Shown: in pieces, positions 1,689-50,999 of the stretch
Numbering within the stretch: the first letter of the stretch is position 1
Layout of the letters: each line of letters starts with the position of its first letter
Origin: Euryodendron excelsum
Lineage: Eukaryota; Streptophyta; Magnoliopsida; Ericales; Pentaphylacaceae
Assembly (NCBI GenBank): GCA_033060915.1
Contig: CM065378.1
Coordinates: 36,227,001-36,291,000 of the forward strand
DNA: 64,000 nt
Direction: 5' to 3'
Notes under the pieces: generated by a model
What the model was told of the DNA's origin: nothing
Seen by the model: only the letters and a program-made list of their open reading frames with translations
Database searches by the model: none
Program-made: the position numbers and the translations under genes

Positions 1689-1699
1689 GGGAGCACATC

Positions 1700-26770: not shown

Positions 26771-28478
26771 ACCTAATTGATTAAAAACCAAAGGAGCTTG
26801 AATCCTCGAATTTCAGAGCTGAAGAACAAATGGGCATCTTCTGCCCTCTCTCTCTCTCTCTCTAGGTGTTCCTTAATGGATTGACAGAGTGATTCAAATA
26901 TATCTAGATATACAGATATATATATATATATATATACATATGTATATCTCTTTTTTGTTTCTTTTGGAGTTGTATTTTGGAGGGTCTTTGATTGCTTGAT
27001 GATTTTGTCAGGAGAGGAGGGTATATATATAGCATTTGAAATGTGAAACTTTAGAATTCCATATCATGGCGTGATGTAAGGTTTGTTGCAACTTGCAATG
27101 GTCGTTCATACTTCAATTCATAGAGAAAAATGTGCTAAGAATGCCCAGTTCTCTTGGTTTACACATAATCAATTTTGTTTTTTCTTTTGGTATTGCATTG
27201 TCCGGGCTAACATACGTGAACTTATAGACTAATCTCATTTTTAATCTGGTGAAAGACAGACCATCCATACCAGAATTAGAATACGATAAATTTCTCGCAA
27301 CCTGATCTCAAAAGTTAAATCTAAGTTAACCTATATGGAAAGCACGCTTACTTGATCAACTAGGACAATCCTCGGGTTAATCATTTCAATTTAATCTCAT
27401 CCTACTTTCTATTTCGATAGCCTTCGTTTATTTGGCTCAATGTCCATAGTATTCTTCCTTTTCCTTATTTTTTGCTCTTTTTTTTTTAAATTTTCTTTCC
27501 CAATTTTATTGGATGAATGGTTAGAGTAAAATTCCTAACATTTCAGTTTTATATAATCACTAACAAATATGTGCAATTGCATATAAAGACATAATCTCCA
27601 TTGCCTCTGGTTATTTCAAAGCATAATACGACCACCACCAACCATATTTACATTGGACAAACATTGGTATGGTTCACTTTTTTCAAACCTTTATTAATTA
27701 AAATTTTCTACTTTTAGCCAAATTCTTAGGATAACAATTTGACTTAAAAATCCTAAAATCTGTCTCACTTGATCCCTAATAATACAAGTTCGAAATCTGA
27801 ATAACCGAGTTAAAAGAGAATTATGTGAGAAAACAATATAATTCAATGTGAGTTTAGAGAGAACTAGGGTTCAGGTCATCCCTCCTCGACCTAGCCTGAC
27901 TCGATTATATCGTGTAATACCCTAAATACCATTATTATGTTATCATAATACATATATCATATGTCTATACAATTAAATGTTAGGATTTTAATACTTTTTT
28001 AATTTTAAATTTTAGCTTCTTTCTTTCTTTCTTAATTTTATATTTTATTTGTTGTTTACAAATTTACAATCTTTTTATTTTTTGGAGCGTTTTATGTGAG
28101 GGTTATCCCTCCTCAACTCACTCAACTCAAACATATTTGGTTGTAGTAGGGTGGAGAAGTTTTTTTTTTTTTTTAATATAGAGGGGGGAGAAGTTTGATA
28201 TAGTATAGATGGGGTTTGGAACAGCGTACGAGATTGAGTTTTCCTACAAGGCAGAATTCAATCTGGCTTCTCCAGAAAACGCACCATTGCCGTCTCTATC
28301 GAAAGTACTTGTGCAGCTTAATGATTCTCCTTTTTTTTTTTTGTAATTGATGTCATCCTACATCAAATTTGAGGATTCTGCTATCATCAAGAATCTTAGT
28401 TGTCCGAAAATCTACAATTGTCCAAAAAACCTATGATTAGACTGTCCTTGGTAGTTGATTGACAGCTTAATATAATAA

Positions 28479-28680
28479 AGAGTAATTAAATTTTATTCTA
28501 TTGTGATTTAAATTAAAATTAAATAATTTTTTATAAATTAAAAATAAATATATGTTCTTTTTATAATTTGAATTTATCTATAAAATATATAAAAAAATTA
28601 TTAAATTTTATAAAAATTTTGTCATAAAAGTATTTTTGTCATTTTATATCTCCAAATTAAAACATCAAAAAGACGAGTAT
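28479..28680. mobile_element. MITE M1 left-half fragment (junction 1)
   Basis: Starts with AGTAATTAAATTTTATTC and ends in the shared word AAATTAAAACATCAAAAAGA; only the left half of the family is present. Similar truncated copies sit at every junction of the tandem array. Confidence 0.7.
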
Positions 28681-29489
28681 GACGATATTGGTATGATCCC
28701 CATTGCCTCCAGTTACTTTAAAGCAGAATATGACCACCACCAACCATATTTACATTGTATTAACATTGATATGGTTAACTATTTTCGAACCTTTATTCAT
28801 TAAAATTTTCTCCTTTTAGCCAAATTCTTAGTATGGCAATTTGACCCAAAAAACCTAAGATCTATCTCACTCGATCCCTAATAATACAAGTTTCGAAAAT
28901 CAATAACTGAGTTAAGGGGGGATTACGGGAGAGGAAATATAATTCAATGCGAGTTTGGAGAGAGCTAGGGTTTAGGTCATCCGTCCTCGACCCTGCCCGA
29001 CTTTATTATATCATGTAATACCGTAAATACCATTATAATGTTTTAATAACACAGATATCATACGTATATACAATTAAGTATTAGAATTTTAATACTTTTT
29101 TAGTTTTAAACTTTAGCTTCTTTCTTTCTTTCTTAATTTTATATTTTATTTGTTGTTTACAAATTTACAATCTTTTTATTTTTTGGAGCGTTTTATGTGA
29201 GTTTATCCCTTCTCAACTCACTCATCTCGAACATGTTTGCTTGTAGTAGGGTGGAGAAGTTTTTTTATTTTTATGTGGAGGGTGGCTAAGTTTTGATATA
29301 GTATAGGTGGAGTTTCGAACACCGTACGAGATTGAGTTTTCCGATAAAGTAGAATTCAATCTAACTTACTCCGGAAATGCACCATTGTCGTCCCTATCAA
29401 AAGTACTTGTGCACCTTAATGATTCCCATTTTTTTTTAAGTTGATGTCATCATACATCAAATTGGAGGATTCTACTATCGTCAAGAATC

Positions 29490-29632
29490 GGGTTTTCTTT
29501 TAAAATAATTAAATTTAAAAAGATATTTTTTAAAATAATAAAAATTAAAATTTTATTTCTAATTTAAGATAAAATGTACATTATAAATGCATTTTTTGAT
29601 AAAACACAATCCAAAATTATATTTTTTAACGA
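29490..29632. repeat. Left TIR of MULE
   Basis: Aligns imperfectly with the reverse complement of 47381-47523, sharing AATTTAAG(A/G)TAAAATG, GAT/GAGAAAACACAA and similar blocks. The left TIR is more AT-rich than the right, consistent with decay of methylated C. Confidence 0.85.
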
Positions 29633-29748
29633 GTAAAAAAAAAACAAAAAAATTTTAAAAAAACTCTCGTAGCTGCGTTTTTTATACCCTTCTAGTCGAC
29701 CCCTCCCAAACCCTCTTTTTTCCCTTGTCCGCCACACACCCCGCGCCG

Positions 29749-29796
<48 letters not shown>
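29749..29796. repeat. Poly-C tract (48 C)
   Basis: An uninterrupted C run just inside the left TIR, followed by a long CT microsatellite (about 29811-29885). On the minus strand it yields a poly-glycine frame that is not a gene. Confidence 0.95.
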
Positions 29797-29799
29797 TTC

Positions 29800-30510
29800 T
29801 TCTCACTTCTCTCTCTCTCTCTCTCTCTTACTTTTTTATTTCTTTCTCTCTCTCTCTACTCCCCTCTCTCTCTTTACTTTCCTCTCTTTCACACTCTCTA
29901 ATTTATCATTCTCACTTTATAAAAATTATACATAATAAATATAATATTTTTAAAATTTATATTTTAAAATTAAAAAATAAAATAAAAAATATGAATAGAA
30001 TTAAGTAATAATTAAAATATTTTAATTGTAAAAATTTTGAACAAAGTTAAGTAATAATTAAAAAATATTAATAGCAAAAAATATGAACATAATCAAGTAA
30101 TAATAAAAATATAGACAAAATGTCATGAAATAACAAAAATTATAATACTATAATACTTTATTTACTACAAATTACTTTATAAAATAACTATATATTTAAC
30201 AATACTTATTTTACTAATAAATAATTTACTTATTTTATTTTTGAAATTATTTTTTTTGCAAAATTGTTGCTATTTTATAACACTTTTTAAAACATTTTAT
30301 CACTGATTAGTAAAATATTTTAATTATTACTTAACTCTGTCTATATTTTTATTTTATTTTATTTAAATAAAAATAATAATAATAAAAATTTTATAAATAT
30401 TATAATTTTATGTATAATTTTTATTATAAAATGAGAATGAGAGAATAGAAAGAGAGTGAAAAAGAGAAAAGGAGAAAGAGAGGGAGTATAGAGAGAGAGA
30501 CAAATTTAGA
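29800..30510. repeat. Foldback-like inverted repeat in MULE subterminal region
   Basis: A CT-rich then AT-rich arm (about 29800-30020, with TCATTCTCACTTTATAAAAA) is mirrored by an AT-rich then GA-rich arm (about 30330-30510, with AAAATGAGAATGAGAGAA). The AT-rich centre adds TTAAGTAATAATTAAAATA words in both orientations. The arms are imperfect, about 180-210 bp. It may be a nested MITE or part of the MULE's own terminus. Confidence 0.65.
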
Positions 30511-30852
30511 CAAAACTCAGGTGCGTTTTATGCTTAGAAAATTAAAATTGAACAATATTTTATGCGACTCGATTTTGCTCGTTTAAAGCATTAACTAAAA
30601 TGATGTGACAGTGACATTCTCAAACCAAAAAGTCATATATAGGATAAAATATAAGTTTATATAAGTTATTATTTTGCTGGACTATGAACTTAGTTTACGA
30701 TTAAAAAGTTATGAATAAAAGAAAATTAGCTTGACTAGACTCAATTTATGAGTAAAAGATAAATGAACAATGCGAGTAACCTTATTGCTTTCGTAGATTC
30801 ATGGCCAAACATAGGATAAGACTAAAAAAAGTTACTACTAACATCTGATACT

Positions 30853-31143
30853 TTATGGACCATGTTCATAACAATATAGTGGTTTGCCGCGAACAAAAAT
30901 GCTACTAGGTAGATAATTGACAAAGTCATCGTCGGCTTCTGCTTCTGAAAAGTCTAAAAATTTTAGGTCAAAAACCAACAAGGGATCTTCATTAATTTCT
31001 ACCAGTTGTTGTGTTAGATCACCACAGTCTGTTTTTGCTTGCTCTGTGAAATGATACCTGTCCAATCTTCGTTACATTTGATCAATCTCGCATTCTAGTG
31101 CTTTCATGACCTTATTCATAGGTGATCTCCTATTCCATAGGTT
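30853..31143 (-). CDS. Unidentified ORF in MULE (acidic C-terminus)
   Basis: The minus strand is open for 70 codons from 31065 (MDRYHFTEQAKTDCGDLTQQ), and with one stop removed the trace extends upstream to about 31190 (SLRVPKVRSVNLWNRR, MKALECEIDQM). The end reads FSEAEADDDFVNYLPSSIFV and stops at 30853. Lysine/glutamate-rich heptad-like text suggests a short coiled coil, then an acidic patch. It lies just beyond the PMD gene in the same orientation. I recognise no family; it could be a third MULE gene, a captured exon, or chance. Confidence 0.35.
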
Positions 31144-31157
31144 AACTGAACGAACCT

Positions 31158-31526
31158 TTGGGACACGGAGGCTATGCCATCGGCAATACATCTCTTGTTC
31201 ACGTCTTTTATCAAGTAAGTCTTCCCACAGTAACCTTATTGATCATTCGTCACACCGGGAAGTGGTCGTACAGATGCATTGCTAATGAAGATATGGCTGA
31301 CTGGACCCGTCGTATTGTGCATAAGGATAGATTTGTTAAGAAAGTTACGTTTTCGGCCGTACCATTTGTTTCCGATTGGGTCTATATATGTACCCATATA
31401 TGTGAGAGTCTTAACGGTTGGCTTTCATCCATGTCAACGGTAGGACTCACACGACTGGACGATGCCCAAAATAAGCATTTTCGTTTTGACATGTATACAT
31501 GTATGGTTGAGCATTCCTACATGTAA
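31158..31526 (+). CDS. Unidentified 122-codon ORF in MULE
   Basis: Plus-strand ORF with MADWTRRIVHKDRFVKKVTF, SDWVYICTHICESLNGW and a tryptophan- and cysteine-bearing composition. GC content is higher than in surrounding DNA. It abuts, in the opposite sense, the ORF at 30853-31143. No known domain is evident, and there is no clear splice context except TATCAAGTAAGTC at about 31209, which could be a donor for an upstream exon. It may be a captured host fragment. Confidence 0.3.
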   Translation: MGHGGYAIGNTSLVHVFYQVSLPTVTLLIIRHTGKWSYRCIANEDMADWTRRIVHKDRFVKKVTFSAVPFVSDWVYICTHICESLNGWLSSMSTVGLTRLDDAQNKHFRFDMYTCMVEHSYM

Positions 31527-31564
31527 TTAGAGGAGGCATCAATTAATGTTTCTTAATACATGAG

Positions 31565-31890
31565 TCTTTAATTGACATGACAACTCTTTGGTGATGACTT
31601 TTCCATTCATTTTCTTGTCACGAGCATGGGGGATGCAACTTTCAAACTGACACAAAGGATCTTTATGGCTTTAATCGACATGACAACTTAGTCTTGCCTT
31701 CTCGTGTTATTGGTGTAGCCTTTAATTGATATGACAAACCTATGGTGTACACTTATCTAGTCATGTTCTGGTCACGAGCATGGGGGATGCTGTATTCATG
31801 TGATGAGGGGTTAATAATTGTTATTGACGTGACTAATCTCTGGTACAGCTTTGTCACCGGCATATGTTGCAGATGCAACATTCATGTAAA
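31565..31890. repeat. Imperfect tandem repeats with CACGAGCATGGGGGATGC
   Basis: Two clear copies of GTCACGAGCATGGGGGATGC (about 31617 and 31771) and a weaker third (about 31854, TCACCGGCATATGTTGCAGA) follow TGACATGACAACTC-like blocks. The period is about 100-155 bp. A TATA-like TTTATAAATACC lies just downstream at about 31912. Possible control region; function unknown. Confidence 0.5.
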
Positions 31891-32400
31891 TAGGGTATAA
31901 GGGATTGCTCTTTATAAATACCTCATATATGGGGGAGGATATGACACTGTAAAATTAAACATTAATCTTGTTATATGATTTTTTGCTATGGTACTTGTCT
32001 TAAAATTAAATGTATACATATGTTTGGTGAGTTGCCCACAAAATGATTAGGAAAATTTAAAAGCGATTTCATACCACGTATAATATAAAATACATGCAAA
32101 TAAATGCGATGCTATGTCTCCGGGGATAAAACCCCTATAATAAACAATAAGAATAGATAATTCCACCTACAATAGATAATACTAATGAAATGTCCTGAAA
32201 ATTGATCGCCCAAACCCCCCCCCTGTTAGACATGTTCGAGTTCGTCAGGTTCTCTTTCCTCTACGAACCGCCACATCCTGTTGCTTGTTATGACCACTCG
32301 GCCCTCTGTCAACACCCACATCTGCCTGCTCATCCTCTACTTGCTCGTCCTCATCACTTACTGGTACCAACTCTTCATCATCGTGCTAAACATGTGACAG

Positions 32401-32640
32401 CCCTAGCGCATAAGTCGATGTTGGGTAGGCATTATGAAAATTATGACTCATCTGTGATGGCCCTGGCGCATATGTCAATGAAGGGTAGCCACTGTGAAAA
32501 TCATGAGTCATCTGTGACGGCCATGGAGCATAACTAGATAAAGGGTAGCCACTGTGAAAATGATGAGTCACCTATGACGGCCCAGCCCCATAAGTCGATG
32601 CAGGATAGTAATTAAGAAAATCATGACAGTGCTGTCCAGA
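32401..32640. repeat. 60-bp tandem repeat in PMD tail exon
   Basis: Four units in exact 60-base register (32401, 32461, 32521, 32581). On the minus strand each encodes about SQMTHDFHSGYPSLTYAPGP, a 20-residue histidine/tyrosine/proline repeat. The in-frame period suggests expansion while the tail was still translated. Confidence 0.9.
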
Positions 32641-35600
32641 ACTGCCCCCTACGAACAGATCATGACTATACCCGAGGTCTGTCTGAAACATAATTAGAGA
32701 TACCTATCGGGTCGGTCGTCGATGTGATGTCCTGGGAGGATCATGTGTGCTAAAGTATACCTCAGTAGGAAAGGATGGCCTATATGATGATGTCCCGAAA
32801 CTCTGATTGGCATAACTGTATGGGGTAGGCATCACGTACCCAGCACTATATCCACCATGAACGAAAGAAAGTATCGAAGAGGTGGATCGGCGTGCGGGGT
32901 GGGATGAGGTCGGATGCCACTTGGAACACTGGCTCCCGAGGAACCAGAAGGCGGGGCATCGTGGGTACGTCGTCTGTGCTGTGGGACACAGTCTGTCTCC
33001 TGTAAGAGGGATAAAGAAGCCATGGCATGAAACTATATCTCATAGATCTCCTTCATTGACTCCGTTTTAGGGAAGTCATGTAGAGCGCGTGTTCTCCTAT
33101 CATATACATCCATCCATTCATGCTTTTGCTTAAAAAACAATTTAATAAACTTTTATTACGATATCTAAATATAATTTTGGTATTTTAATATTTAACTGCA
33201 CATACCAATGCATCTATGGTGTCCCCGACACCTGAATATCCTTTATCTGTGCGTTTTAGTGGATTTCTAATATGGAGACGAGTGATGCTCCTATACCAAG
33301 TCATATAAGGATCAGTGGAGGACATAGGTATATCTTGAATCTCGTCATCAACTATACGGTCCATCCTATGTGACCAGAGTGCTATATACACTGCATGAAA
33401 ATCACTCCAATCAACTCCGAGTTTCCCCCGTCGATCCACTGAATGCAGATCCCTCCTAGTGTTTGGATGGTCCGGTATGTCCTGTCTCATCCCGAACTGG
33501 CGCATCACTCAATTTGGTAAATATAACTCCACAACTTCAAAACACACGAGAGGAACCAATACCCTCCAAACCTCTATCCCAGCAAAGCAGTAGTAGGGCA
33601 ACGTGTCCATAATGGGCTCATATAGGGTCTAATGAAACTGAAAAATACAAAACATATAATCAATTGTCATGTAACGAAATCCAACTACAATCAAAACACA
33701 CGACATGAGTAACATAACGACAATCAATTGTACAAATTAAAGGTAACGAATGTAAAACGTACAACAGATATAACTCACATTTTCGGGGCGAAGTCGGTCC
33801 AACTGATCCCTATACACAATGAGGACATGGGTAGAGACGTTTGTCAAGAGGAAATCATCATACCACCTGCCCCCTAGCGGTCCACCTGGAAACTCATGTT
33901 CCTCAATAATAACCGAATGCTGCGCAAGTGTAATTGAAATCGACTTTCGTATAGGCCCCATAATTGGGAATCTCTCCCATACCCAAATCTAAATAATTCT
34001 CAATCTCAATATGGAAGGATATGATTGTCTAGACTAAATCACAACATGAGTAACATAATGTTTTGCATACCTGTAGTAATGTAAGCGGGCCACTGATCTC
34101 AAAAGAGGTGGGACATGCGGCGTGACATAACTCCATGTACAATGATACTAAGACTGCACTCCCCAAGCTGAAATGTCCATAAGCATCAAGGTCTACTATC
34201 AAGGGTAAGTACATGGGTCGAAACAGCGTACCGGAGTGATCTGGCATCATGATGCCGCTAAGGAGTTTCAATATAAATCCCCGAGCATGGGGCTACACTG
34301 TGATCTCATCAGCATTATCTGCAAGTGCCCAAATGTCTCACTTAACCACCTAAGTCTCACAAAATTTTTCTTAAAATTTTTAGGCCCGGGTGCAACTCCT
34401 AAATGGTGTATAAAAATAGGGGCCCATCCCTGTGGTGTCGACGAGCCAGAAGGACCTGCAAAATGTTAGTAAATTGGAGTTCAATTGTTCGATACGACAT
34501 AATAACGTGTATAAGATCATGAAGTAACGCATATAATTAAATAATGTCATGAACTATAATTGTGAATTATAGTTACTGTTGACTCAAGGTTGATCCCCAT
34601 GTTGATTTTGATGATAACAAAACCATGTGGTTGTTATCTAATAATTTCACTTGAGTGTGCAGATTAGATTATAATCATTTGATAACAAGAAAATAATTGA
34701 GTTGATCGGTTGAGTATCAAACAAGAAGATTACTTAGGTAATCTCATTCTTGAAGAGATTGAAGATGCTCAAAGAGTTCAACAAGTATTCAAAAGAAGGA
34801 TGCAAGTGACTGAAGATCTTATGATGATTCAAGAAGTTATTCAAAGAAGCAAAGCACTCAAGCAAGATTATTTGAAGAGTATTCAAGTTGACATGGAATC
34901 AATTCTTGAAGACTAAAGTACAAATTGAAGTGTAAATACAACAAAGGATTTCAAGTAGAATTGAAGACCGAAGAGCTGGCACCGTACAAATATGGTTTAC
35001 ACTTCACTATGAAGACCCTCGATCCTCATGGCCATATCAAGTCCACTATATCATCATGCATGCTATGAACTTCTAAATTGGTTGATTTTTCTACTCTAAA
35101 TCTAGAAAATGCATTGAGGCATAAAGCATAAAAGAAAAGGGGAGCAACAAGTTAAAGCTTGTCAAGTAACAGTGGAGAACTTGTCACATTGAAGATATTG
35201 AAGAACTTGTGGTGAGAAGCTTGTCATGAAACAATGAAGACAAGAAGTATGATGAGTTGATACATTCAGCAATCTCATAGTTGCAACCTCATTTAGATGA
35301 CTCTTACAAGACATGGAAGCTCACCTTGAAGATTTGAAGATGTCTTGAAAGTATTGATAAGAAATCACAAGAGTTGGAAGCTTCATTGAAGATTATGTTG
35401 AAGTCTTGAATTGATGGAAGAAGTTATATTGATTAAAGAATCCTAGAAGAAATCAATTTGATGAAGATCAAGTAAAGAGATTGAAGATGTTCAATAAGCA
35501 TGAAAGATCAATTGAAGAAAAGAGATCTCAAGTCTTGGAAGCTCTCTTGAAGATTTTGAAGAAGACTTAGATCAATGGAAGAAGTGATGTTGATTGAAGA

Positions 35601-35784
35601 ACTCTAAATATAATCAAAAGTGTATTGATTTTATCTTGAAGAGTTGAAGATGTTCTTGAAGTCAACATGCCTTGAAGAAGTCTTTTCAAGCCTTAAAAAC
35701 CTTATTTGGATGACCTTAAAGAGCTTGAAGATATTGAAGAATATTGAAGAAGTATTGCAAAAGTTAATGATTTTCCTAAAAAGA

Positions 35785-36022
35785 GTCGACCCCTCAAGAA
35801 AAAGAGTCGACTCATTCGAACAGAGGCTGAAAATTCTGGTGGAACATCAAAAGAGTCGACCCCTAGCATAAAAGAGTCGACTCATTCCAACAAAGAGTTG
35901 ATTGTGCAGTTTTAGACCAAAAGAGTCGACCCCTGGATCAAAAGAGTCGACTCATTTGGGCAGAACCTTCAAAAATCTGCAAAAACACAAAAAGAGTCGA
36001 CCCCTACTTAAAAAGAGTCGAC
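35785..36022. repeat. Four doublets of a GTCGAC palindrome repeat in the LTR
   Basis: Eight GTCGAC sites in about 240 bp, arranged as AAAGAGTCGACCCCT followed about 15 bp later by AAAGAGTCGACTCATT, four times over. GAGTCGACTC is a perfect 10-bp palindrome. The layout resembles the palindrome clusters described in Sirevirus LTRs and may bind transcription factors. Confidence 0.9.
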
Positions 36023-36349
36023 TCATTTAAGGTAACGGCTAGTTTTTTGAACGTTATACTCCGCCGTTTTCTTATCAAATGGTCTCCCATCCATCTCTAA
36101 CGGCTATAATCAACTCAAGGCTATATATACAAGATCCCCAACACATATATGATGATGAAGAACAAGAAGAACATGAGAAGAACTCAAGATTAAGTGCTAC
36201 AAAGTGATATTTCATCTTCCACATCTTATACTCTGTTTTTATTCATTTGGGGGGTTCTTGAATGAGCTGAAAATTTGTTTATCTACTCTTTGAGAGAGAG
36301 TTATTCATTGTACAACCTTCATCTATTATTGGGTGGGTTTGTAAACTTG

Positions 36350-36545
36350 TAAGTTTGAGTGTTCTTGAGAAAAACACTTGTGAGTTTGAGTGTAGCTTGG
36401 GAAAAACACTTGTAAGTTTGAGAGAAGCTTGGACAAAATCTCTTGTAAGTTTGAGTGAAGCTTGGATAAAATCACTAGTAAGTTTGAGAGAAACTTAGAC
36501 AAAATCTCTTAGGTTTTGAGAGCTTGGGGAAGAGCTCTTGTAAGA
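36350..36545. repeat. Short tandem repeats near LTR 3' part
   Basis: Five to six units of about 38-40 bp built on CTTGTAAGTTTGAGTGAAGC and ACAAAATC/AAAAACAC blocks, downstream of the predicted TATA element of the solo LTR. Confidence 0.8.
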
Positions 36546-37904
36546 GTGAGCTAGGCATTTGGAGAAAAACTAGCAGCTGTGTAAGGAAAGTTTACATAGT
36601 GGAATACCTTCGAGAGGATTGAGGAAGAAAGGACGTAGGCAAGGTTTGGCCGAACCTCTATAAATCTGGTGTTCTTCATCTCTTTGCTCATATTATTTCC
36701 TTGCATTACATTATATTGTTTGCTTGCTTGGTTATTAGTTTGATTGCTCACTGCCACATTACTTAAATTGTTTTTAATTGCATTGTTTGATATAAATTTT
36801 ATAAAACCCAATTCACCCCCCTCTTGGGTTGCCTACTTGGGCCAACAGTTACGAATCTGTAACAGCCCTGCCAATAACCGGAAGACCGTATAGTATGGAA
36901 ACATCCTGTAATATGACTGTCGCCTCCCCGATAGGCAAGTGAAAGGTGAGTGTCTCCTGTCGCCATTTCTCAACCATGGTTGTGAGCAAAGCATGATCGT
37001 GCTGAATCTTACCGACGTGGTATACAATGTAAAAACTGCCATGAATCAAATAAGAAATAATGCGGGGGTCTACAACATCGTCGAATATACCTGAGTCTCC
37101 CCGACGACAATGCATAGGCTCTTCACACTAGCGATCAAATAAAATAAATGCATAATAAAATTGTAGTAGTTAGTAACAAAACTAAATGTTAACTATTATG
37201 TATATTATGTACAAATTCTACAAAACTTACCCCGTGGTCCCACACAACCTGTGACCGATAAATATCCTGTAACGTAAGTACACTACCATCGATGGGCTCA
37301 TCAACTCGTCGTTGTGATGCCATACCGTACGATATTTCTGGAACGTTAGTCAAATGCAATACACAAAATCGATGAGCATTTAATAATAGGTTAACATAGA
37401 TGAAACAAGTTTAATATACTCACAATCATATATATAATGTTTTATCAAAAGTATAAGAATGTAACATGCACGAAATATTTTTATTTATTATTTATGAAAT
37501 AATTATTTGTATTTGTTATTCACATAGATGGAACATTAGTAAATTTGTATTTATTAACATAGATGGAACGTTTGTAAATTTGTATTTGTTATTCACGAAA
37601 TAATTTTTTGTATTTATTATTCACATAGATGGAATGTTAGTAAATTTGTATTTGTTAACACAGATAGAACGTTTCTAAATTTGTATTTCTTATTCACGAA
37701 AGAATTATTTGTATTTGTTATTTACATAGATGGAACATTAGTAAATTTGTATTTGTTAACATACATGGAACGCTAGTAAATTTTTATTTGTTATTCACGA
37801 AATAAGTATAAGAATGTAACATGCATGAAATAATTAGAATTGTAAATTTGTACATTTTGAAGATGTGTATCAAATACAAATGGATTACGTACATGTACTA
37901 TTCC

Positions 37905-40900
37905 TTAGTGTTCCCCTCCCCTTCTCCTGTTTGAACAACGACGTCTATTATGACTAGACTCCTTGCATAAACTACACTTGAAAGTTTGTATTTGCATTGA
38001 TTCGTCCATTTCGTTAGAAATTTTACTGTGTTCAGGACGGCCTTTACGAGCTACACGTTTGCGATAGGGGTTTGGGAGGATAGTAGGCTCTTTATAAGGA
38101 GGCTAGTAATCCTCCATTAACAGTGGCGCAAATGGAGGCCCATGCACACGAGCATACGCTTCTATAGTGTAGTGGTCGTCAAATAAAAATCATGGTTGTT
38201 TTCTAACAGTTGCAGTAGCAGCAAGCATGTGGGAGCAAGGGAGGTGAAATATAACCCATTTTTTACATATAGAGCTAGGCGAAAAAAGCTGCACGACATG
38301 TAAATGACCACCTTTAGTCCTCTTCCTGCCGGGTAGCACATTGACAGACATTGTGTCCATATACAACAAGGAACAAAATTTTATACATATTTGCTGATAG
38401 ATCTTGAACAATAGCCATTTAATGATGGAGGTATTAACATATATTACCAATTACAAATTGTGACAGTATGACTAGCTGCTTTTTTGCTCCACTTCTAAAA
38501 TCTTTCATGCACTTCTAACGGGTATGCATGGCCACTCTGCATGTCAGCTTATATCTCACTACGTCGTATAACAAAACTCTCAACAAGATGGTAATAAGTG
38601 ACTTGCACAGCTGGAGTGATGGGTAAGTTACGTGCGCCTACTATCGCACTATTGTAGCTCTCAACATTGTTAGTTGAATTGATCCCCCAACTATTCCCGC
38701 CATCGCGAACAAATGTCCACTTAGTAATATCTTCCCCCACTAGTTCATTATAACAATGTTCACTTATCTTCTTAATTCTTTCCATTATAGTGTTGAACTT
38801 TTGCAGTTGATGAGCTGTGCTAGCAGCCCATACCAAGTCCTTGATCCTTATCATATTATACTTCTTGTGGTAGTTACTACGAAAGTGCCGAAGGTAATAC
38901 CTGTGAAAACCAAGTGGTTGGTCATTACTTAGATGTTCCCATATTCGATCAATGGCATTTAATAGGCCCCGGTGGCAATCCGATAGTATGGTGATACGTT
39001 CCCTACTAGGGACAACGACATGTCTCAATAAGTTGATAAACCACGACCAGTTACGTGTGTCCTCACCCTCGACAACAGAAAAGGCTAGGAAAAAATTTCT
39101 ACCCCTGGCAGTGACCCCTACAACAATAATTATGACACCCTTATATTTTTCATAAAGGTGGGTGCCATCAACTGAAATAACCAGCAAACAGTGTTTGAAA
39201 CAATTAATACATGGTCCGAATGCCCAAAATACTCGATCAAACACGACCATGTCACGGACATCCTGATTAAAGGTCTCTAACACTTGGATTGTTTCAAGGT
39301 TTCTTGACTGTATTGCCATCAAATATCTTGGAAGTTTTGCGAACAACTGTTTCCAATTGCCGAATAACATCTGTATTGCCTTCCATGCTTTCTTATATGA
39401 GATAGAATTGTGGTATTGTTGTTTGACATCTTCCATTATGAACGCAATCTTCCAATCAGGGTCTTTCTGTACAAATAAAACACATTTTAAGTACTTTAGA
39501 GGAACTTCTTTTATGTTAAACTAATCAGTTATTGTGATAAAGTCTGAATCAAAGTTAAACTCACCGCTACTTGCGCCATGATAATATCTGTAATGAAGTT
39601 TGCGTCTAGGTTACGATGACCCATGTTTGACATTCCGTACAAACAATAATGAGGCTCATTATATTGCGTAACCTCCCACATCCCATGTCTTTTGGTGGAC
39701 GCACGAATCATCCAAAGGCAATTGTGTGCACACTTCGCTTTAAACAATTTCGTAGTTAATTCAACAACCGAATACTCCTTGTTGTTGTGCAAGTGATACG
39801 TTGTGCATGCATTTTTTACACTTGCCTTGTCATCGAATAGCATTCCCGTTTCAAAATTGAGATTCTGCATGTCCCATACAGCCCTATGGTGAAAATGACC
39901 CCTGCCAATTACAGGTGCATCATATGTCTCTGGCAATGTGGTAAAGTAAGGAATCGGGATCTCTCATTGTTGTTGAACATCGTCGTCGGAATCGTTCAAC
40001 AGAGTAATATCTATATGTTCATCAGATTTTTTTGACTATGTATCTAGAGACCATACATTCAAATCAATTTGTATGGGAATGGATTGGTGGCCTGATTCAA
40101 CCATATGTTGCACTGGATCTCTCCCTTGGTTATGTCTCATCGAAGGCTCTTGTGAAGGACCAACGGTGTCTCTGGTAGGCCGATGTTATGACATATTACT
40201 CGACCCAATGCCATAATCAACAAACGAATCTTGGTAAGCACTTTGTTGCGTGTTTTACAAATGAAACGGGTTACCATATTGGTTAAATTGTTGTGAATAT
40301 GGCACACTATGGCCAATAGAGTCCTGTCCCAACGTCAACATCATCATCATCGAGAAGTTCCACGTTGTTGATGCATCTCCTTTAGTGTCACATCCCCATC
40401 CTAATTAGACATTAATTATGTCGTATTAGGTAGGGCGTGATCGCACAGATCACTGTACCTGCGAACGACACCTTAATCCACACCCCACAAATATAATACA
40501 ACGGAAGAAACACCATTGCCTTAAGAAACTATAAACCAACTATGCATAAATATAACGTACATCAGAATAATTGATCCCATAACTTTACAAGCATCATATC
40601 CAATATAGGTATATGAAAAATCCCAAACTCAAGCTAACGTAAAGTAAAATACAAATAGAAAAGACTACTCAAGCCCTGAGACATAACATCCGGACACCAA
40701 TATAAATGCCACCACGGCAGGGACCAACACTGTAGTGAACCAAACCGTCATCACCAAGTTACATGTCAAAACAGTCTGTGTGGGTGTGAGCTAATTGTCA
40801 ACGTGCTCACGATAGATAATCAGACTCATAAAGAATGATAATAAGCACCCAAATGCACACAGGTAGAAATGATGAATATATCTATATCATGGATGTCTCA

Positions 40901-43134
40901 TTGCAATGCATGTATCACCCACATGTGCGCGCAATTTTAGATAACGTTGACCCAATATATCAATGGCACGTTATTAAGGAATGCCCACCGTGGCACCCCT
41001 AGGCTAGTCCACCGTGACTAAGCCTTGGTTAACCCACCGTGGTTAACTCTTTCCAGTGCAATGCAAGGCATACAATATGAATGGTATGCAATGCCACCAT
41101 ATATATAAAATCATCAATGTTTCCACAGAACTTCTCATATAATACCAATTTCACCTCATATATAAACACCTTCAACACCTCATATGCACTCACCACCATT
41201 ATACATATAGAAAATACACAATGCATTTAACATGAATAAGATTATCTCAAAATCCCACAATCCCATAATTAACACCAATATAGATAATAACACAAGCAAT
41301 ATATATTCACTTCTATATGAATAAGACTATCCTATGATCCCACCTATCACCGCACACACACTAGGTCAAAGATCACTTTTGGGTTGACGTTGAAGGATCT
41401 TGCTCTCCGTTAGCTCCTAACACCACAACCGTATTAGGTTAGGTAACTCAATGTATACTCCAATAATCATAAATATAATGGATATACTCCAAACAAGTTA
41501 TAACACTGAAATTATGCATTAAAACTACCATATGCTAATCTCAATCACACTCCCAATGTTAAGCTAGAGCTAAAAATACCAAAATACAATAAGTCTTCTA
41601 ATCTGTCAAAACTGACACAGGTATCCTAATTTGGACATAATTTCGTGAGCTTATACCCAAAAATTATAAAAATTTAGAAATATAAAATAGGCATATCAAA
41701 GAGCATCCAGACCAAATTTTACATTTTTTGAACATGCCTAAGTATTTATTTGGTATTTTCTAAAACAGGGCAGTGCTGTAGAAACTTAAATTCAGCAGCA
41801 AATGCTCTACCTTTGATAAATTCGTAGCATAGGTAAAAGACATCGAAATAACCTGAAATTTGGTACAGATTATCATCAATTGTTCTACAAGATACAGTCA
41901 AAATTTCATAATTTTTGGGCTACTCTAACTTGGTCGAATGCTCTGTCAAACCAGAGGTTACAGATCTGGGCAGATCTGAGCATTAGACTTCTACAGTGGC
42001 AGCTTAACTTTGAAAAATCACCATAATTCGAATATACAACATTTTTTACTGAAACTAAAGCCCAAATTTTCCTAAGATCTCAAATTTGAAGTGTGCAAAA
42101 CTTCAGCTACAAATCAGAGTTTTAAAGAGGTCAAACAACCTCCGAAAGTGGTTGTTTCTGTAAATTTTGGCAGCAAAAATCTTCCAACTTTGGACAGAAG
42201 TTTCTCTCTCAATTCTTAACCAAATCAGATGAATTTTGTATCTAAATCAAGTAATTTTTCAAGATCTATCTACCTATAGCCTGATCTACAGCAAGGTATG
42301 AATTTTTATACTTGAAATTAGCCTCTTCTTGCACTGCAGCACCTCGTGCTACTCCTCTATTTCTCTGCAACTTCTCTCTCTCTCTATATCTCTCTCCTTC
42401 TCTCTCTATCTTTCTCTTTTTCTTTCTATCACTCTCACATTTGTTTTCTTTTTCTTTTTCTTTTTTTTAACTATCTCTTTCAACTAGTTAGGTAAACTAG
42501 TTAGGTAAAAGCCTTAGATGTCACTCATTTCTTTCCCCCATCATTTCTCATTCACTAAGTGACTTACACCTAGGTGCCAACTCCTATTGGTAGGGTAATT
42601 TAAGTCAACTAATTACTTAAGGTCATTAATGTTTTTACATAAATGCTATTTTACATACCTCTTAACCATGCAATGCTATCATCATTAATTACTGATAAAA
42701 TTAAAAGTTGGGGTCTCACATTTAGCTGATAGAATCCTGCCATACCCCTGAATGTCACCCCACATTCGATCTGCTGCAATGTCTACATCTACAACTGCAT
42801 CCTCTACTTCGATGTACAACTCGATGCATTCCATCCATGGCTTTTTCTGTGATAGTCGTAAAGCAATTTGTAATGTCCGATCATCTCTGATCACAATTTT
42901 CTTATATTTGGTCGAGCCCCCTTCATTACAAACTGAAAATCTGCATATAATTTTCAGCCTCACATTTTGTCCATCTTTGCTAATCATAGGCATTATCATA
43001 TTTTCTAGTTCAGACATTTTTAATTGCAATGGTAAACTGTAAAATGTCTGGTATTCCATACTGTACACAATCCCTTCATCACGATCTTTAATTATTTCAC
43101 CACCCCAATACAACATAACCGTTGTTTCATCCAT
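37905..43134 (-). pseudogene. mudrA: mudrA-type MULE transposase
   Basis: Mutator transposases bind the TIRs and cut DNA with a DDE nuclease fold. Order on the minus strand: a PB1-like N-terminal domain (43134-42726, MLYWGGEIIKDRDEGIVYS, IELYIEVED); a solo LTR; a linker with several stops; the MuDR zinc-finger domain (39565-about 39940, GMLFDDKASVKNACTTYHL, CLWMIRA); an intron 39467-39564; the catalytic exon (from 39466, SVDGTHLYEKYKG, ILSDCHRGLLNAI, TNNVESYN), so D, D and E are present; a SWIM finger (about 38230, CKKWVIFHLPCSHMLAA); and a CCHC knuckle (about 37950, CSLCKESSHNRRRC), stop at 37905. Oddities: SDRH is SDCH, and the usual Cys in the RYCLRH block is Tyr. Stops after RRSEI and in the linker disable the gene. 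Confidence 0.92.
40386..42720 (-). mobile_element. Solo LTR, 2,335 bp, TSD TTTAG, in mudrA
   Basis: Ends are TGTCACATCCCCATCC and GGTCTCACA on the plus strand, flanked by TTTAG at 40381-40385 and 42721-42725. Read on the minus strand it begins TGTGAGACCCCAAC and ends GGGGATGTGACA, a form common in Ty3/gypsy LTRs, so minus orientation is preferred. It separates the PB1-like part of mudrA from the rest; the frame continues across once the LTR and one TTTAG are ignored. A CT-rich microsatellite lies at about 42375-42440. Confidence 0.88.
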
Positions 43135-43199
43135 TCTTGCACCTATTAAACAATAATTAAACAGATTCCAATTTATTTAAGCCATTTCATTGGTAATTA

Positions 43200-46100
43200 T
43201 CATGGCATTTGTAGCATATCACAATATTTTATTACTAATTAATAACATATTTTTTAATTTAATTATTTTACTCATACATATTGAACTAAAAAAATCTATT
43301 AGTTTAGTTTATTTTTGTTGGATCCTATAACCTTTTGTATTAATTTATTAGTTTAGTTTTTTTTTTTTTTGGATCCTATAACCTTTTTTCTTAATTTATT
43401 AGTTTAGTTTCCTTTTTTGGATCCTACAATTTTTTAGTTCACTGAATATTATTTAGTACAAATAATTTTCCTAATAAATATTTATACATATTTCTTAATT
43501 TCATGGCATCCTACTTACTAACCAATCTATTTTTTTAGTTAATTAGTTAGCTTCTTTTTTTTTTTGGATCTTATAACCTTTTTTCTTCTTTGGGTTGGAA
43601 CTTTTTTGTAGTAACAAAATAATTAAATTAAGGCCATAATTATTATTGTTTTATATTTCTTTTTTATGAACAGAATCTTATCTAAAAAACAAATGGATAA
43701 TGAATAGTAAAAGAACAATTATTTTGAACAATAGATATCTTTCACATCCAACTAAAGTAATTAGTAACCACTTCATTTCAAAATGGTAGTTCCAAAAAAA
43801 CATACTTCTAATTATTTTCATAATAAATTTTTTTTAGCATATCATAATATTTTATTACTAATTCATAACATATTTTTAATTTAATTATTTTTCTCATACA
43901 TATTGAACTAAAAAAATCTATTAGTTCAGTTTATTTTGTTGGATCCTATAACCTTTGTTCTTAATTTATTATTTTAGTTTTTTTTTTTGGATCCTATAAT
44001 TTTTTAGTTCACTGAATATTATTTAGTACAAATAATTTTCCTAATAAATATTTATACACATTTCTTAAATTAAGGCCACATACTAATTTCGTAAAAAAAC
44101 CGTATTTTCCTTAAATTTATAGTGAAAAAATTATATTTTATGGTAATTTCGTAATTATTTTCTTAATAAATTATTTTTAGCATATCATAATATTTTATTA
44201 CTAATTAATAACATATTTTTTAATTTAATTATTTTTCTCATACATATTGAACTAAAAAAATCTATTAGTTTTGTTTTTTTTTTTTTGGATCCTATAACCT
44301 TTTTTCTTAATTTATTAGTTTAGTTTTTTTTTTTTTGGATCCTACAATTTTTTAGTTCACTGAATATTATTTAGTACAAATAATTTTCCTAATAAATATT
44401 TATACACATTTCTTAAATTAAGGCCACATACTAATTTCGTAAAAAATGTATTTTCCTTAAATTTATAGTGAAAAATTTATATTTCATGGTAATTTCGTAA
44501 TTATTCTCATAATAAAATTTTTTTAGCATATCATAATATTTTATTACTAATTCATAACATATTTTTTAATTTAATTATTTTACTCATACATATTGAACTA
44601 AAAAAATCTATTAGTTTAGTTTATTTTTGTTGGATCCTATAACCTTTTGTATTAATTTATTAGTTTAGTTTTTTTTTTTTGGATCTTATAACCTTTTTTT
44701 CTTAATTTATTAGTTTAGTTTTTTTTTTTTTTTGGATCCTACAATTTTTTAGTTCACTGAATATTATTTAGTACAAATAATTTTCCTAATAAATATTTAT
44801 ACACATTTCTTAAATTAAGGCCACATACTAATTTTTCGTAAAAAATGTATTTTTTTTCATTAAATTTATAGTGAAAAATTTATATTTTATGGTAATTTCG
44901 TAATTATTTTCATAATAAATTTTTTTTAGCATATCATAATATTTTATTACTAATTCATAACATATTTTTTAATTTAATTATTTTACTCATACATATTGAA
45001 CTAAAAAAATCTATTAGTTTAGTTTATTTTGTTGGATCCTATAACCTTTGTTCTTAATTTATTAGTTTAGTTTTTTTTTTTTTGGATCCTACAATTTTTA
45101 GTTCACTGAATATTATTTAGTACAAATAATTTTCCTAATAAATATTTATACATATTTCTTAAATTAAGGCCACATACTAATTTCGTAAAAAAAAAAAAAA
45201 AAAACCGTATTTTCCTTAAATTTAGAGTGAAAAAAATTATATTTTATGTTAATTTCGTAATTATTTTCTTAATAAATTATTTTTAGCATATCATAATATT
45301 TTATTGCTAATTAATAACATATTTTTTTTAATTCAATTATTTTTCTCATACATATTGAAATAAAAAAATCTATTAGTTTTGTTTTTTTTTTTGTTTTTGG
45401 ATCCTATAACCTTTTTCTTAATTTATTAGTTTAGTTTTTTTTTTTTTTTTGATCCTACAATTTCTTAGTTCACTGAATATTATTTAGTACAAATAATTTT
45501 CCTAATAAATATTTATACACATTTCTTAAATTAAGGCCACATACTAATTTCGTAAAAAATGTATTTTCCTTAAATTTATAGTGAAAAAATTATATTTTAT
45601 GGTAATTTCGTAATTATTTTCTTAATAAATTATTTTTTTGCATATCATAATATTTTTTATTACTAATTAATGACATAGTTTTTAATTTAATTATTTTTCT
45701 TATACATATTGAACTAAAAAAATCTATTAGTTTAGTTTTTTTTTTTTTTTGGATCCTATAACCTTTTTTCTTAATTTATTAGTTTAGTTTAGTTTTTTTG
45801 GATCCTACAATTTTTTAGTTCACTGAATATTATTTAGTACAAATAATTTTCCTAATAAATATTTATACACATTTCTTAAATTAAGGCCACATACTAATTT
45901 CGTAAAAACATATTTTCCTTAAAATTATACTAAAAAATTATATTTTATGGTAATTTTAGTAATTATTTTTGTAAAATGTTTTTTAGCATATCCTAATATT
46001 TTATTACTAATTAATAACATATTTTAATTTAATTATTTTACTCATACATATTGAACTAAAAAAATCAATTAGTTTAGTTTTTTTTTTTTTTTTTGGATCC

Positions 46101-46640
46101 TATAACCTTTTTTTCTCAATTTATTAGTTTATTTTTTTTTTTTTTGGATCCCACAATTTTTTATTTCACTGAATATTATTTAGTACAAATAATTTTTCTA
46201 ATAAATATTTATACACATTTCTTAATTTCATGGCATCCTACTTACTAACCAATCTATTTTTTTAGTTAATTAGTTTAGGTTCTTTTTCTTTTTTTTGTGG
46301 ATCCTATAACCTTTTTTCTTCTTTAGATTGGAACTTTTTTACAGTAACAAAATAATTAAATTAAGGCCACACACTAATTTCGTAAAAAACGTATTTTCCT
46401 TAAATTTGTAGTTAAAAAATTATATTTTATGGTAATTTCGTAATTATTTTTGTAATAAATATTTTTTTAGAATATCATAATATTTTATTACTAATTAATA
46501 TCATATTTTTTAATTTAATTATTTTACTCATGCATATTGAACTAAAAAAATCTATTAGTTTAGGTTTTTTATTTTGGAATCCTATAACCATTTTTAACAT
46601 ATCATAATATTTTCTTACTAACTGATAACATATTTTTTAC
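43200..46640. repeat. AT-rich tandem array of about 350-bp units upstream of mudrA
   Basis: Units begin with AGCATATCATAATATTTTATT near 43215, 43838, 44175, 44525, 44930, 45286, 45638, 45987, 46470 and 46597. Spacing is mostly 338-405 bp, with wider gaps after the first (about 620) and eighth (about 480) and a short last step. Each full unit contains poly-T runs leading into TTGGATCCTATAACC and TTGGATCCTACAATTT, then TTCACTGAATATTATTTAG and TAAATATTTATACACATTTC. The array lies between the right TIR and the mudrA start codon. No coding. Confidence 0.92.
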
Positions 46641-47380
46641 TAACCAACTAACATAAATAAATCACATATTTTTCCCGAAGGCCTTTTCCTAAATAACATA
46701 AATAAATAAATAACATATTTTTCCTAACCAATGTAGTGCGACACAAGTAATATCTAGCTTACCAACATAAATAAATAAATTATTTTATCAATGAAAATAA
46801 TCTACTAACCTGTTTTTTGCATAATAATGGAGGCCTTTTTCGAAGTAACACGAGCAACAAATATGGCTATAAATAAAATAATAAAAAGTTAGTAATCTAT
46901 GAATTATATAATAAAATAATTATATTTTTACCATTATTATTTTACTACTACATCATATCATATACTAATATATATATCACATACGAGAGAGAATGAGGGA
47001 AAAAAAATTAGAGTTAGAAATTACCTGGTAGAGTTTACAAGAGAGAATGAGAGAGAGATAGATGATCCTTGTTGATTAATCAGTTGAGAGAAGCAAAATA
47101 GAGAGAATGCGGGGTGAGAAACAGAGAGGTGAAGGAGAAAGAGAACTAGAGTGAAGGAGGAAAGGAGAAGTTGGGTGAAAAGAAAGAAAGAATTTGGACG
47201 GTCCGTCAAATAGCTATAAAGTGAAAATGCAAATGAAAAGTGAAAATGTAAATGAAGAACGAAGGAATTTGTAGCCAAAGTGAAAACGCAACTTATGATT
47301 GCATTTTCTCTGTATATTTGCAGAAAGATTTTGTAGACTACGTGAAGCTCGCAGGCTTTGTCGGTCACAGGCGGTAAAAA

Positions 47381-47523
47381 AGAAAAAACGCAACTCAGAG
47401 TTGTGTTTTCTCAAAAAAACGCACTCTCGATACGCATTTTACCTTAAATTGGGAATAAAGTTTTGATTTTTGTTATTTCGGGAAACACCTTTTCAAATTC
47501 AATTATTTTGATAAAAAAAACCC
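47381..47523. repeat. Right TIR of MULE
   Basis: Partner of 29490-29632; the outermost bases on the minus strand are GGGTTTTTTTTTATC. mudrA is read inward from this end, so the TIR and the next few kb would hold its promoter and leader. Confidence 0.85.
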
Positions 47524-47610
47524 TCAAGAATCTTAGTTGTCTGAAATCTACAATTGTCCAAAAAACAACGATTAGATTGTGCTTGTAGTTGATTAACAAT
47601 TTAATATAAT

Positions 47611-47815
47611 AAGGCGTAATTATACTTTACCTCATTGTGATTTGAGCTAAAATTAGATGATTAATTTTAGTTTAAAAGTAAATACATGACCCCCTTATTA
47701 TTTGGACTTATCTACAAAATGTATAGACACTGTTAGATTTTACAAAAAAAATTTATCATAAAAGTATTTTTGTCATTTTATATCTACAAATTAGAATATA
47801 AAAAACAACAAATAT
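47611..47815. mobile_element. MITE M1 left-half fragment (junction 2)
   Basis: Starts AAGGCGTAATTATACTTTAC and ends near AAATATGACGATATTGG, truncated at the same internal region as the fragment at 28479. It joins U3 to U4. Confidence 0.75.
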
Positions 47816-48341
47816 GACGATATTGGTATGATCTCCATTGCCTCCAGTTATTTTGAAACAGAATATGGCCACCACCAACCATATTTACATTGGACAAACA
47901 TTGGTATGGTTAACGTTTTCAAAACCTTTATTAATTAAAATTTTCTCCTTTTAGCCAAATTCTCATAATGACAATTTGACCCAAAAAATTCAAGATTTGT
48001 CTCACTCGGTTCCTAATAATACAGGTGTGTAATATAAATAACCAAGTTAAGAGAAGATTACATGAGAGGAAATATAATTCAATCTAAGTTGGAGAGAGCT
48101 AGGGTTTAGATCATCCCTCCTCGACCTAGCCCAAGTCTGTTATATTGTGTAATACCATAAATACCATTATCATGTTTTAATAATAAAAATATCATATATA
48201 TTTACAATTAAATGTTAGGATTTTAAAACTTTTTTAATTTTAAATTTTAGCTTCTTTCTTTCTTTCTCAATTTTATATTTTGTTTGTTGTTTACAAATTT
48301 GTATGCTTTTTATTTTTTGGAGCATTTTATGTGAGTTTATC

Positions 48342-49261
48342 CAGGAGCGGACCGACCTTGGGCCGAGGGTAGGCGGCCGCCCCCCTGAAATATGGAGGAA
48401 AAAAAAAATTTTTTTTAGTCCAATTCATTTTATATTTTGCACTGACCCATTTTAATGAGGTGAATACAGAGCTATTTTGTATATAGAATCTCTTGATCTA
48501 AGCAATTCATTATTTGATTTTGATAAAAGTAAGTTGCTTTGGTTTGCTGTGTTTTATCCTAATAATTTTTTTCCTTGAGCTTATGGTGCTTTAATCAACT
48601 TGAGACCTACATTCTAGATGTTTACTCTAATGATCAATTTTCAGAAGTGATAGAAATTGGTGAGCTTGATCAAAAATTGATTTAAACAAAAATGACAGTG
48701 TCTACAAATTCATGGGCAGGCAGAGGGGCCTATCAAAATTTTGAAAATCTATATAATAAAACACAACATTTTTTGAAAATGTTTCCTTTACATTTGTATT
48801 TTATAGCTCAAATTTAATTTTAAATTACATTCAATGATTGAGATCAATTGCACATTTTGTACCAAACTCAATTCTTGCCCAAACCCACGCCACCCCCACA
48901 AACTCGGTATGCACACCACCATCACTCCTTCACTCTAAAACCCAAGAAATCTACTTGCATAAAAAATAAAAATAAAAATAAAAAATCCAATAAACTTACT
49001 TGTTAAGACAACTCTTGATCTTTCTTTGCTTAAACTCACACCACACCCACAAATGCACACCATCACCAACCCCAAAACCCTATAAACTTACTTGCATTAA
49101 AAAAAACTTATAAAACTCATTTGCTAGCAACCCTTCATCTATTTTTCTTTCTGCCTAAAATCACACCCCCCCCCCCCCCCCCCCCCAAACTAAAGTCATA
49201 GCTCCGCCACGGAGTGTATCCCCCCCCCCCCCCCCAAACTACAGTCATAGCTCCGCCACTG
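48342..49261. mobile_element. Non-autonomous hAT-like element, 920 bp
   Basis: Begins CAGGAGCGGACC and ends GCTCCGCCACTG, short inverted termini of the CAG(T/G)GGCGGA type. Flanks AGTTTATC and AGTGTATC give an 8-bp duplication with one mismatch, and the other tandem units show the empty site (GTGAGTTTATCCC). No transposase is seen. The right end is duplicated: the C-run, AAACTAAAGTCATAGCTCCG and AGTGTATC occur twice (about 49166-49219 and 49220-49269). Confidence 0.82.
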
Positions 49262-49640
49262 AGTGTATCCCGCCTCAACTCAATCAACTCGAACATGTTA
49301 CGCTGTAGTAGGGTGGAGAAGTTTTTCTGTTTTATTTTTATTTTTATATGGAGGGTGGATAAGTTTTGATGTACTATAGATAGGGTTTCGAACACCGTAC
49401 AAGATTGAGTTTTCCTATAAGGTAGAATTCAGTCTAACTTACTCTGAAACTGCACAGTCGCTGTCCCCATCAAAAGTACTTGTGCAGCTTAATGATTCCC
49501 ATTTTTTTTTAAATTGATGTCATCCTACATCAAATTGGAGGATTCTATTATCGTCGAGAATCTTACTTGTCCGAAATCTATAATTGTCCAAAAAACCAAT
49601 GATGGGACTGTGCTTGGTAGTTTTTGGACTGCTTAATATA

Positions 49641-49826
49641 ATAAGGGGTAATTACATTTATTTTTTTGTAATTTGAATCAAAATTAAATAATTTTTTTTT
49701 ATTTAAAAATAAATACATAATTTTTTTATTATTTGAACTTATCTGTAAAATGTATAGACACCATTAAATTTTATTAAAATTCTATCATAAAAGTATTTTC
49801 GTTATTTTATATCTTCAAATACAATG
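49641..49826. mobile_element. MITE M1 left-half fragment (junction 3)
   Basis: Starts near TAAGGGGTAATTACATTTA and stops in the same mid-element region as the other junction fragments. It joins U4 to U5. Confidence 0.75.
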
Positions 49827-49924
49827 ATATTAGTATGATCTCCATTGCCTCCGGTTATTTTAAAGCAAAATATGACCACCACCACCACCAACCATATTTA
49901 AATTGGACAACATTGGTATGGTTA

Positions 49925-50171
49925 GGGTCTGTTTGAAAGTGCTGTTAGTTTTTGTTTTTTGTTGTATGTTTTTGTTTTTTATTTTTGTTTTTTGTTTTTT
50001 ATGGTCTAATGATAGAATTTATAGGTTACCGTTCTACTAAAAATACTATATCAATGTTATAGAATCAGAAAATACATTTATTTTAGTATTTTTTTGTTAT
50101 GTTTTAATTTTTGAAAAATAAAAAAACAAAAAACAAAAAACAAAAACAAAAAACAGTTTCCAAACAAACCC
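49925..50171. mobile_element. Tourist-like MITE, 247 bp, TSD TTA
   Basis: Termini GGGTCTGTTTGAAAG and, inverted, GGGTTTGTTTGGAAAC, with flanking TTA on each side. Removing the element restores GGTATGGTTAACTTTTTTC as in other units. The 3-bp TTA duplication and this terminus fit PIF/Harbinger-derived MITEs. The inside is a long GTTTTTTG/CAAAAAAC hairpin. Confidence 0.88.
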
Positions 50172-50999
50172 TTAACTTTTTTCAAACCTTTATCAATTAA
50201 AATTTTCTACTTTTAGCCAAATTCTCATAATGACAATTTGACCCAAAAAAAAAAACTCAAGATCTGTCTCACTCGATTCCTAATAATACAAGTTTGGAAT
50301 ATGAATAACTAAGTTAAGGGAGGATTACGTGAGAGAAAATATAATTCGATGCGGGTTTGGAGAGAGCTAGGGTTTAGATCATCCCTCTTTGACCTTGCCC
50401 GTCTCTATTATATCATGTAATACTCTAAATACTATTATTATATTTTAATAATATAGATATCATATGTATATACAATTAAATGTTAGGATTTTAATAATTT
50501 TTTAATTTTAAATTTTAGCTTCTTGCTTTCTTTCTTAATTTTATATATTTTTTTTGTTGTTTACAAATTTACAATCTTTTTATTTTTTGGAGCATTTTAT
50601 TTGAGTTTATTCTTCCTCAACTCACTCAACTCGAACATGTTTGGTTGTAGTAGGGTGTAGAAGTTTTGTTTATTTTTATATAGAGGGTGGGGAAGTTTTG
50701 ATATAGTGTAGATGGGGTTTGGAACAGCGTACGAGATTGAATTTTCCTATATGGTAGAATTCAGTCTAACTTCTCCCGAAAATGCATCGTTGCCATTCCT
50801 ATCAAAAGTACTTGTGCAGCTTAATGATTTCTATTTTTTTAAATTGATATCATCCTACATCAAATTGGAGGATTCTGTTGTCGTTTGATATAGGATTCTG
50901 CTATCGTCAAGAATCTTAGTTGTCCGAAATAAACAATTGCCCCAAAAAACCTATGATTAGATTGTGATTGGTAAGTGATTGACAGTTTAATATAATATA

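Follow-up and report, generated by a model that had tools for sequence, protein, structure and literature searches.

What is a plant mobile domain gene doing inside a DNA transposon, and do it and the transposase gene recur together and share one history? The question is raised by a Mutator-like element (MULE) of 18,034 bp at positions 29490-47523 of a 64,000 nt stretch of the Euryodendron excelsum genome (assembly GCA_033060915.1, contig CM065378.1, 36,227,001-36,291,000 of the forward strand). The whole stretch is called here the window, and all coordinates are window positions. The element carries a mudrA transposase gene and a plant mobile domain (PMD) gene, and a preliminary description had taken PMD for a standing cargo or accessory gene in a lineage of MULEs, one that possibly counters silencing or aids transposition. 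We judge it slightly better than even, at a probability of about 0.52, that the element belongs to a MULE lineage keeping mudrA together with PMD as a standing accessory gene, and that PMD is most likely a VANC-like DNA-binding protein acting against silencing.

The element is real, well bounded and degenerate. A target-site duplication (TSD), TCAAGAATC, stands on both sides of it with all 9 of 9 letters identical, as the preliminary description had stated. Terminal inverted repeats (TIRs) are also present, but their alignment covers about 120 bp, so that the length of about 140 bp given before was a little generous. Under looser scoring, 250 bp from each end yielded 71.5 against a best score of 43.5 in 200 shuffles, confirming the TIRs. 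A TSD of 9 bp, which lies within the 8-11 bp range, the TIRs and a MULE-type transposase domain together identify the element as a MULE. The 25 mismatches between the TIRs comprise 20 transitions with A/T on the left and G/C on the right, two in the opposite direction and three transversions. Methylation-driven decay of the element was considered in view of this one-sidedness, yet CpG is not low and we make no such claim.

The insertion point is known to the base, since a 600-bp query made of the two flanks joined without the MULE finds an unbroken match across the junction at four other units of the window, over most of the query in three cases and over 124 bp in one. Each of these paralogous empty sites, whose number had been given correctly from the start, holds a single copy of the target (exact in three, with one mismatch in the fourth), and the breakpoints agree with the self-comparison of the window. 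The surroundings of the insertion (17861-18417, 27591-29489 and 47524-51185) are a family of repeated host units, with pairs of pieces about 76-87% alike.

Pfam matches on the minus strand bear out the presence of one mudrA and one multi-exon PMD gene, both read from the right end of the MULE. Pieces of an Actinidia rufa protein (P0035) from residues 3 to 1113 are collinear with the window in a tblastn comparison. The amino-terminal exon of mudrA, which had no Pfam match in the scan of window pieces, is stop-free at 42721-43125, where it matches residues 3-139 of this protein with an E of 2.5e-23. Further along the gene, the SWIM match lies just below its cut-off (17.2 against 19.6 bits) and the zinc knuckle of the carboxy-terminal region was read by eye. 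Four premature in-frame stops interrupt the conserved core of mudrA, two in the catalytic region and two in 37950-38348, and this copy accordingly lacks the intact transposase frame of an autonomous MULE.

Beyond the mudrA stop codon and about 580 bp, PMD opens in a separate frame with its start at 37323. Its five conserved exons extend to 33206, and a carboxy-terminal region with repeats continues to about 32246. GT or AG stands at each exon border toward an intron. The PF10536 profile matches four of the exon pieces, three of them above the cut-off, and its positions 3-62, 108-181, 181-241 and 282-347 are covered. Behind the peptide repeat of the carboxy-terminal region lies a DNA repeat with a 60-bp unit in 3.9 copies (32393-32627). 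The lesions of PMD are a frameshift and a stop in exon 3, a stop in exon 5 and two stops in the repeat region. The preliminary description mentioned neither the damage to the two genes nor the nested insertion described below. Because of the in-frame stops and the frameshift, neither full protein can come from this copy as it stands, and its sequence is apparently that of a once autonomous MULE that is now broken. It had been put forward as a good reference element, which holds for its structure but not for a working element, as neither gene is intact.

Three protein searches, in one of which the best 7,998 candidates by shared words were scored and in the third of which the query itself contained three mudrA-PMD fusions, gave a set of 77 distinct proteins. 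With phmmer (E<=1e-3), 70 of these match the window mudrA, 16 the window PMD and nine both; these nine of 77 give no rate and set no upper limit, owing to the bias of the third query and to gene models, in which neighbouring genes may be fused or a separate PMD overlooked. The nine proteins come from Actinidia eriantha (P0014), A. rufa (P0023, P0035), Heliosperma (P0031, P0036, P0037), Aristolochia (P0047, P0058) and Cuscuta (P0062). The order is mudrA then PMD in eight of them and is reversed in the Cuscuta protein, which may be a gene-model join. Pfam agrees with phmmer on the pairs save for P0023, where it finds SWIM and PMD without a MULE domain, and NCBIfam gave only a below-threshold IS256 match on P0036. 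The two genes thus do recur together in other plants.

The trees of mudrA and PMD indicate that the two genes share their nearest relatives, those of Actinidia (kiwifruit). A quick mudrA tree of 69 rows, from which P0031 and P0077 had been dropped as short, placed the window sequence with the three Actinidia rows and P0009 (Shimodaira-Hasegawa-like approximate likelihood ratio test, SH-aLRT, 99). The window-Actinidia grouping received 100/99 in a tree of 35 chosen rows, and the window with the three Actinidia rows 100/100 in a tree of 27 rows chosen from the 69. The smaller set omits, relative to the larger, four same-genus rows of unknown PMD status (P0009, P0030, P0038 and P0067), the two Cuscuta rows and, from among the long rows, P0013 and P0046. 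In the PMD tree of 15 rows, without P0058 (short) and Cuscuta (long), the window again joins the three Actinidia rows (87/87, not starred), with Oldenlandia P0001 next to them; the tree of 16 rows that includes Cuscuta gives 83/88 for the window with Actinidia. For the mudrA trees, the programs gave warnings of a long branch leading to the window sequence and of a doubtful grouping of Carex with Aristolochia.

The window and Actinidia are sisters in both trees, but the carriers of the pair do not form one clade, and the Heliosperma and Aristolochia pairs fall apart from the window-Actinidia pairs in both gene trees. A single clade of all carriers was rejected by approximately unbiased (AU) tests, run after the first trees had been viewed, both for mudrA (p-AU 3.8e-5 with eight carriers in 27 rows; 5.8e-8 in 35 rows with Cuscuta outside the tested set) and for PMD (p-AU 8.3e-6 with eight carriers in 15 rows, Cuscuta dropped). 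This pattern may reflect repeated acquisition of the pair, or an ancient pair that was lost in places. The recurrence of mudrA-then-PMD proteins and the sister position of Actinidia in both trees support the proposal that a MULE lineage has PMD as one of its standing genes.

Both the association of PMD with MULEs and the anti-silencing idea are already in print (PMC5418596, PMC6446971). Ikeda et al. 2017 described fusions of PMD with MULE transposase in grasses and Amborella, suggested an anti-silencing use and cited the first report on PMD, which was linked to a MULE of rice (PMC5418596). Our element likewise combines a MULE transposase with PMD, but in two frames instead of a fusion protein, and the nearest relatives found are those of Actinidia. 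For several groups of plant MULEs, Dupeyron et al. 2019 listed PMD in half of the members or in the majority, frequently in antisense orientation (PMC6446971). With groups 42 and 45-50 of that study the element shares PMD, a 9-bp TSD, TIR lengths in range and, with its SWIM-like and zinc-knuckle-like end, probably SWIM or CCHC fingers, whereas its PMD lies on the same strand as mudrA. Reading PMD in that paper as the plant mobile domain is our own interpretation, because the words "plant mobile" are absent from its main text. According to Nicolau 2020, eudicot PMDs are mainly genic PMD-C. The host proteins MAIN and MAIL1 share the PMD domain family; they are, however, products of host genes that promote silencing, while the present PMD sits within a transposon.

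A lead on the role of PMD comes from predicted models of two of its relatives, which match the VANC21 DNA complex (9lnj); these are models of related proteins and not of this copy. VANC21 was their only significant fold match, and a comparison with a viral fold library was negative (best E 0.016). The non-coding tandem repeats of VANDAL21 contain a 9-bp motif to which VANC21 binds, causing loss of methylation there, and VANC proteins consist of conserved domains and variable regions, often with tandem peptide motifs (PMC5735166, PMC10398659). The Arabidopsis VANDAL21/VANC21 system and the present element are alike in being a MULE with an accessory gene, in tandem DNA arrays and in tandem peptide repeats. 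The predicted fold match of the related PMDs lends indirect support to the earlier suggestion that PMD counters silencing. In the mechanism that we favour, mudrA would be the transposase acting on the TIRs, PMD would bind to short sequence motifs within non-coding stretches of its MULE family, and bound PMD would lift host silencing there, so that mudrA would be expressed.

Several observations limit the comparison with VANDAL21 and VANC21. The TM-scores of the matches between PMD models and VANC21 are low. Pfam detected no DUF1985 in the window pieces (E<=0.1) or in eight related PMD proteins (E<=10, weak matches being mostly filtered out), and no link between PMD and VANC was found at the sequence level. 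The motif YAGTATTAY occurs only twice in the MULE and in neither of its two arrays, and there is no dense motif array as in VANDAL21, from which the element also differs in its TIRs of about 120 bp. A simple copy of the VANDAL arrangement is further disfavoured by the lack of any 9- or 10-mer common to the two arrays (at least three copies in one and at least two in the other), a test that other kinds of motif escape. A fold link between PMD and VANC was not met in the literature among the matches listed, although the paper describing 9lnj may state it. A wider proposal is that PMD and VANC belong to a single DNA-binding family of ancient origin, which plant MULEs have repeatedly employed as an anti-silencing factor of their own and whose fold serves the host silencing proteins MAIN and MAIL1 to the contrary effect; it is tentative and falls somewhat short of even odds.

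Three other roles for PMD have to be weighed. That it helps transposition or integration and takes no part in silencing, as proposed for maize mudrB, appears unlikely: PMD has the same nearest relatives as mudrA, a DNA-binding fold would suit a helper too and mudrB is apparently required for integration (PMC6446971), but the one protein with a significant match in fold is a factor that counters silencing. We regard a passenger role, with PMD as a host gene caught by chance, as rather improbable. MULEs often capture host genes, and Pack-MULEs do so without a transposase gene; the broken PMD of this copy and the minority of both-gene proteins among those retrieved fit such a capture. The element does carry mudrA, however, and so is not a Pack-MULE, most of the PMD domain is retained, and Actinidia has the same pair, with trees that match and a similar degree of divergence. 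Least probable of all is a decoy that imitates PMD subunits and disturbs the host MAIN/MAIL1/PP7L complex, for while the PMD proteins of the host act in silencing (PMC7156037, PMC5418596) and the MULE copy could compete for their partners, the effect would be genome-wide, and the match to a protein that binds specific DNA sequences points to local action.

Besides the two genes, the element contains two tandem arrays and a nested insertion where intron 2 of PMD begins (see the table). The insertion is probably a solo long terminal repeat (LTR), a single LTR copy, so that there is no second one for comparison, and it holds internal short repeats including AAAAGAGTCGACTCATT units. The DOWN motif was looked for and not found, and TGCGTTTT near the MULE ends carries no weight because it was chosen after looking. 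Near the left end of the MULE, a run of 48 C (29749-29796) may be a weak spot of the assembly, about 650 bp (29845-30500) match their own reverse complement at 69%, and short open frames lie on both strands at 30856-31526, four of which were scanned without a Pfam match. Elsewhere in the window, open frames in pieces at 13567-15573 (minus strand) read by eye like an ABCG-type transporter, and those at 1275-3184 and 24398-25984 resemble, also by eye, a copia polyprotein and a LINE or RNase H region.

Table. Features of the MULE and of its insertion site, in window positions.
Feature	Positions	Strand	Remarks
Left TSD TCAAGAATC	29481-29489		end comparison
Right TSD TCAAGAATC	47524-47532		end comparison
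Left TIR	29490-29609	+	95/120 paired letters identical to right TIR
Right TIR	47401-47523	-	pairs, as reverse complement, with left TIR
Paralogous empty site	28387-28395		exact target
Paralogous empty site	50907-50915		exact target
Paralogous empty site	18545-18553		exact target
Paralogous empty site	49554-49562		one mismatch in target
mudrA amino-terminal exon	42688-43176	-	open frame; exon limits not fixed exactly
mudrA DNA-binding exon, DBD_Tnp_Mut	39532-39963	-	open frame; PF03108 23.8 bits, just below cut-off of 25
mudrA catalytic region, MULE domain	38447-39466	-	PF10551 E 1.3e-12; two in-frame stops
mudrA carboxy-terminal region, SWIM-like and zinc-knuckle-like	37905-38348	-	ends at stop codon 37905; two premature in-frame stops
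PMD exon 1 with ATG	37231-37323	-	followed by GT
PMD exon 2	36853-37127	-	PF10536 E 1.2e-19; donor site a guess
PMD exon 3	34071-34455	-	PF10536 E 3.8e-15; one frameshift and one in-frame stop
PMD exon 4	33779-33988	-	PF10536 E 0.0011, below cut-off
PMD exon 5	33206-33628	-	PF10536 E 4e-9; one in-frame stop
PMD carboxy-terminal region	32246-32670	-	tandem peptide repeat of about 20 residues; two in-frame stops
Nested insertion, probable solo LTR	34577-36847		2,271 bp; TG..CA ends; TSD GTTAC at 34572-34576 and 36848-36852; at the beginning of intron 2 of PMD
Tandem DNA repeats, 101-bp unit	37477-37852		between mudrA and PMD, before PMD
AT-rich tandem array, units of about 350 bp	43208-46595		between mudrA and right TIR, before mudrA

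With its defined boundaries, the element can serve as a reference for a lineage of PMD-MULEs that has its nearest known relatives, among those found here, in kiwifruit, and the structural lead given by the predicted models would make the function of PMD testable. If the fold of VANC21, which was solved together with DNA, is indeed shared, it would offer a testable hypothesis on the DNA bound by PMDs, in transposons as well as in host silencing, and would join two literatures, that on VANC anti-silencing and that on PMD silencing.

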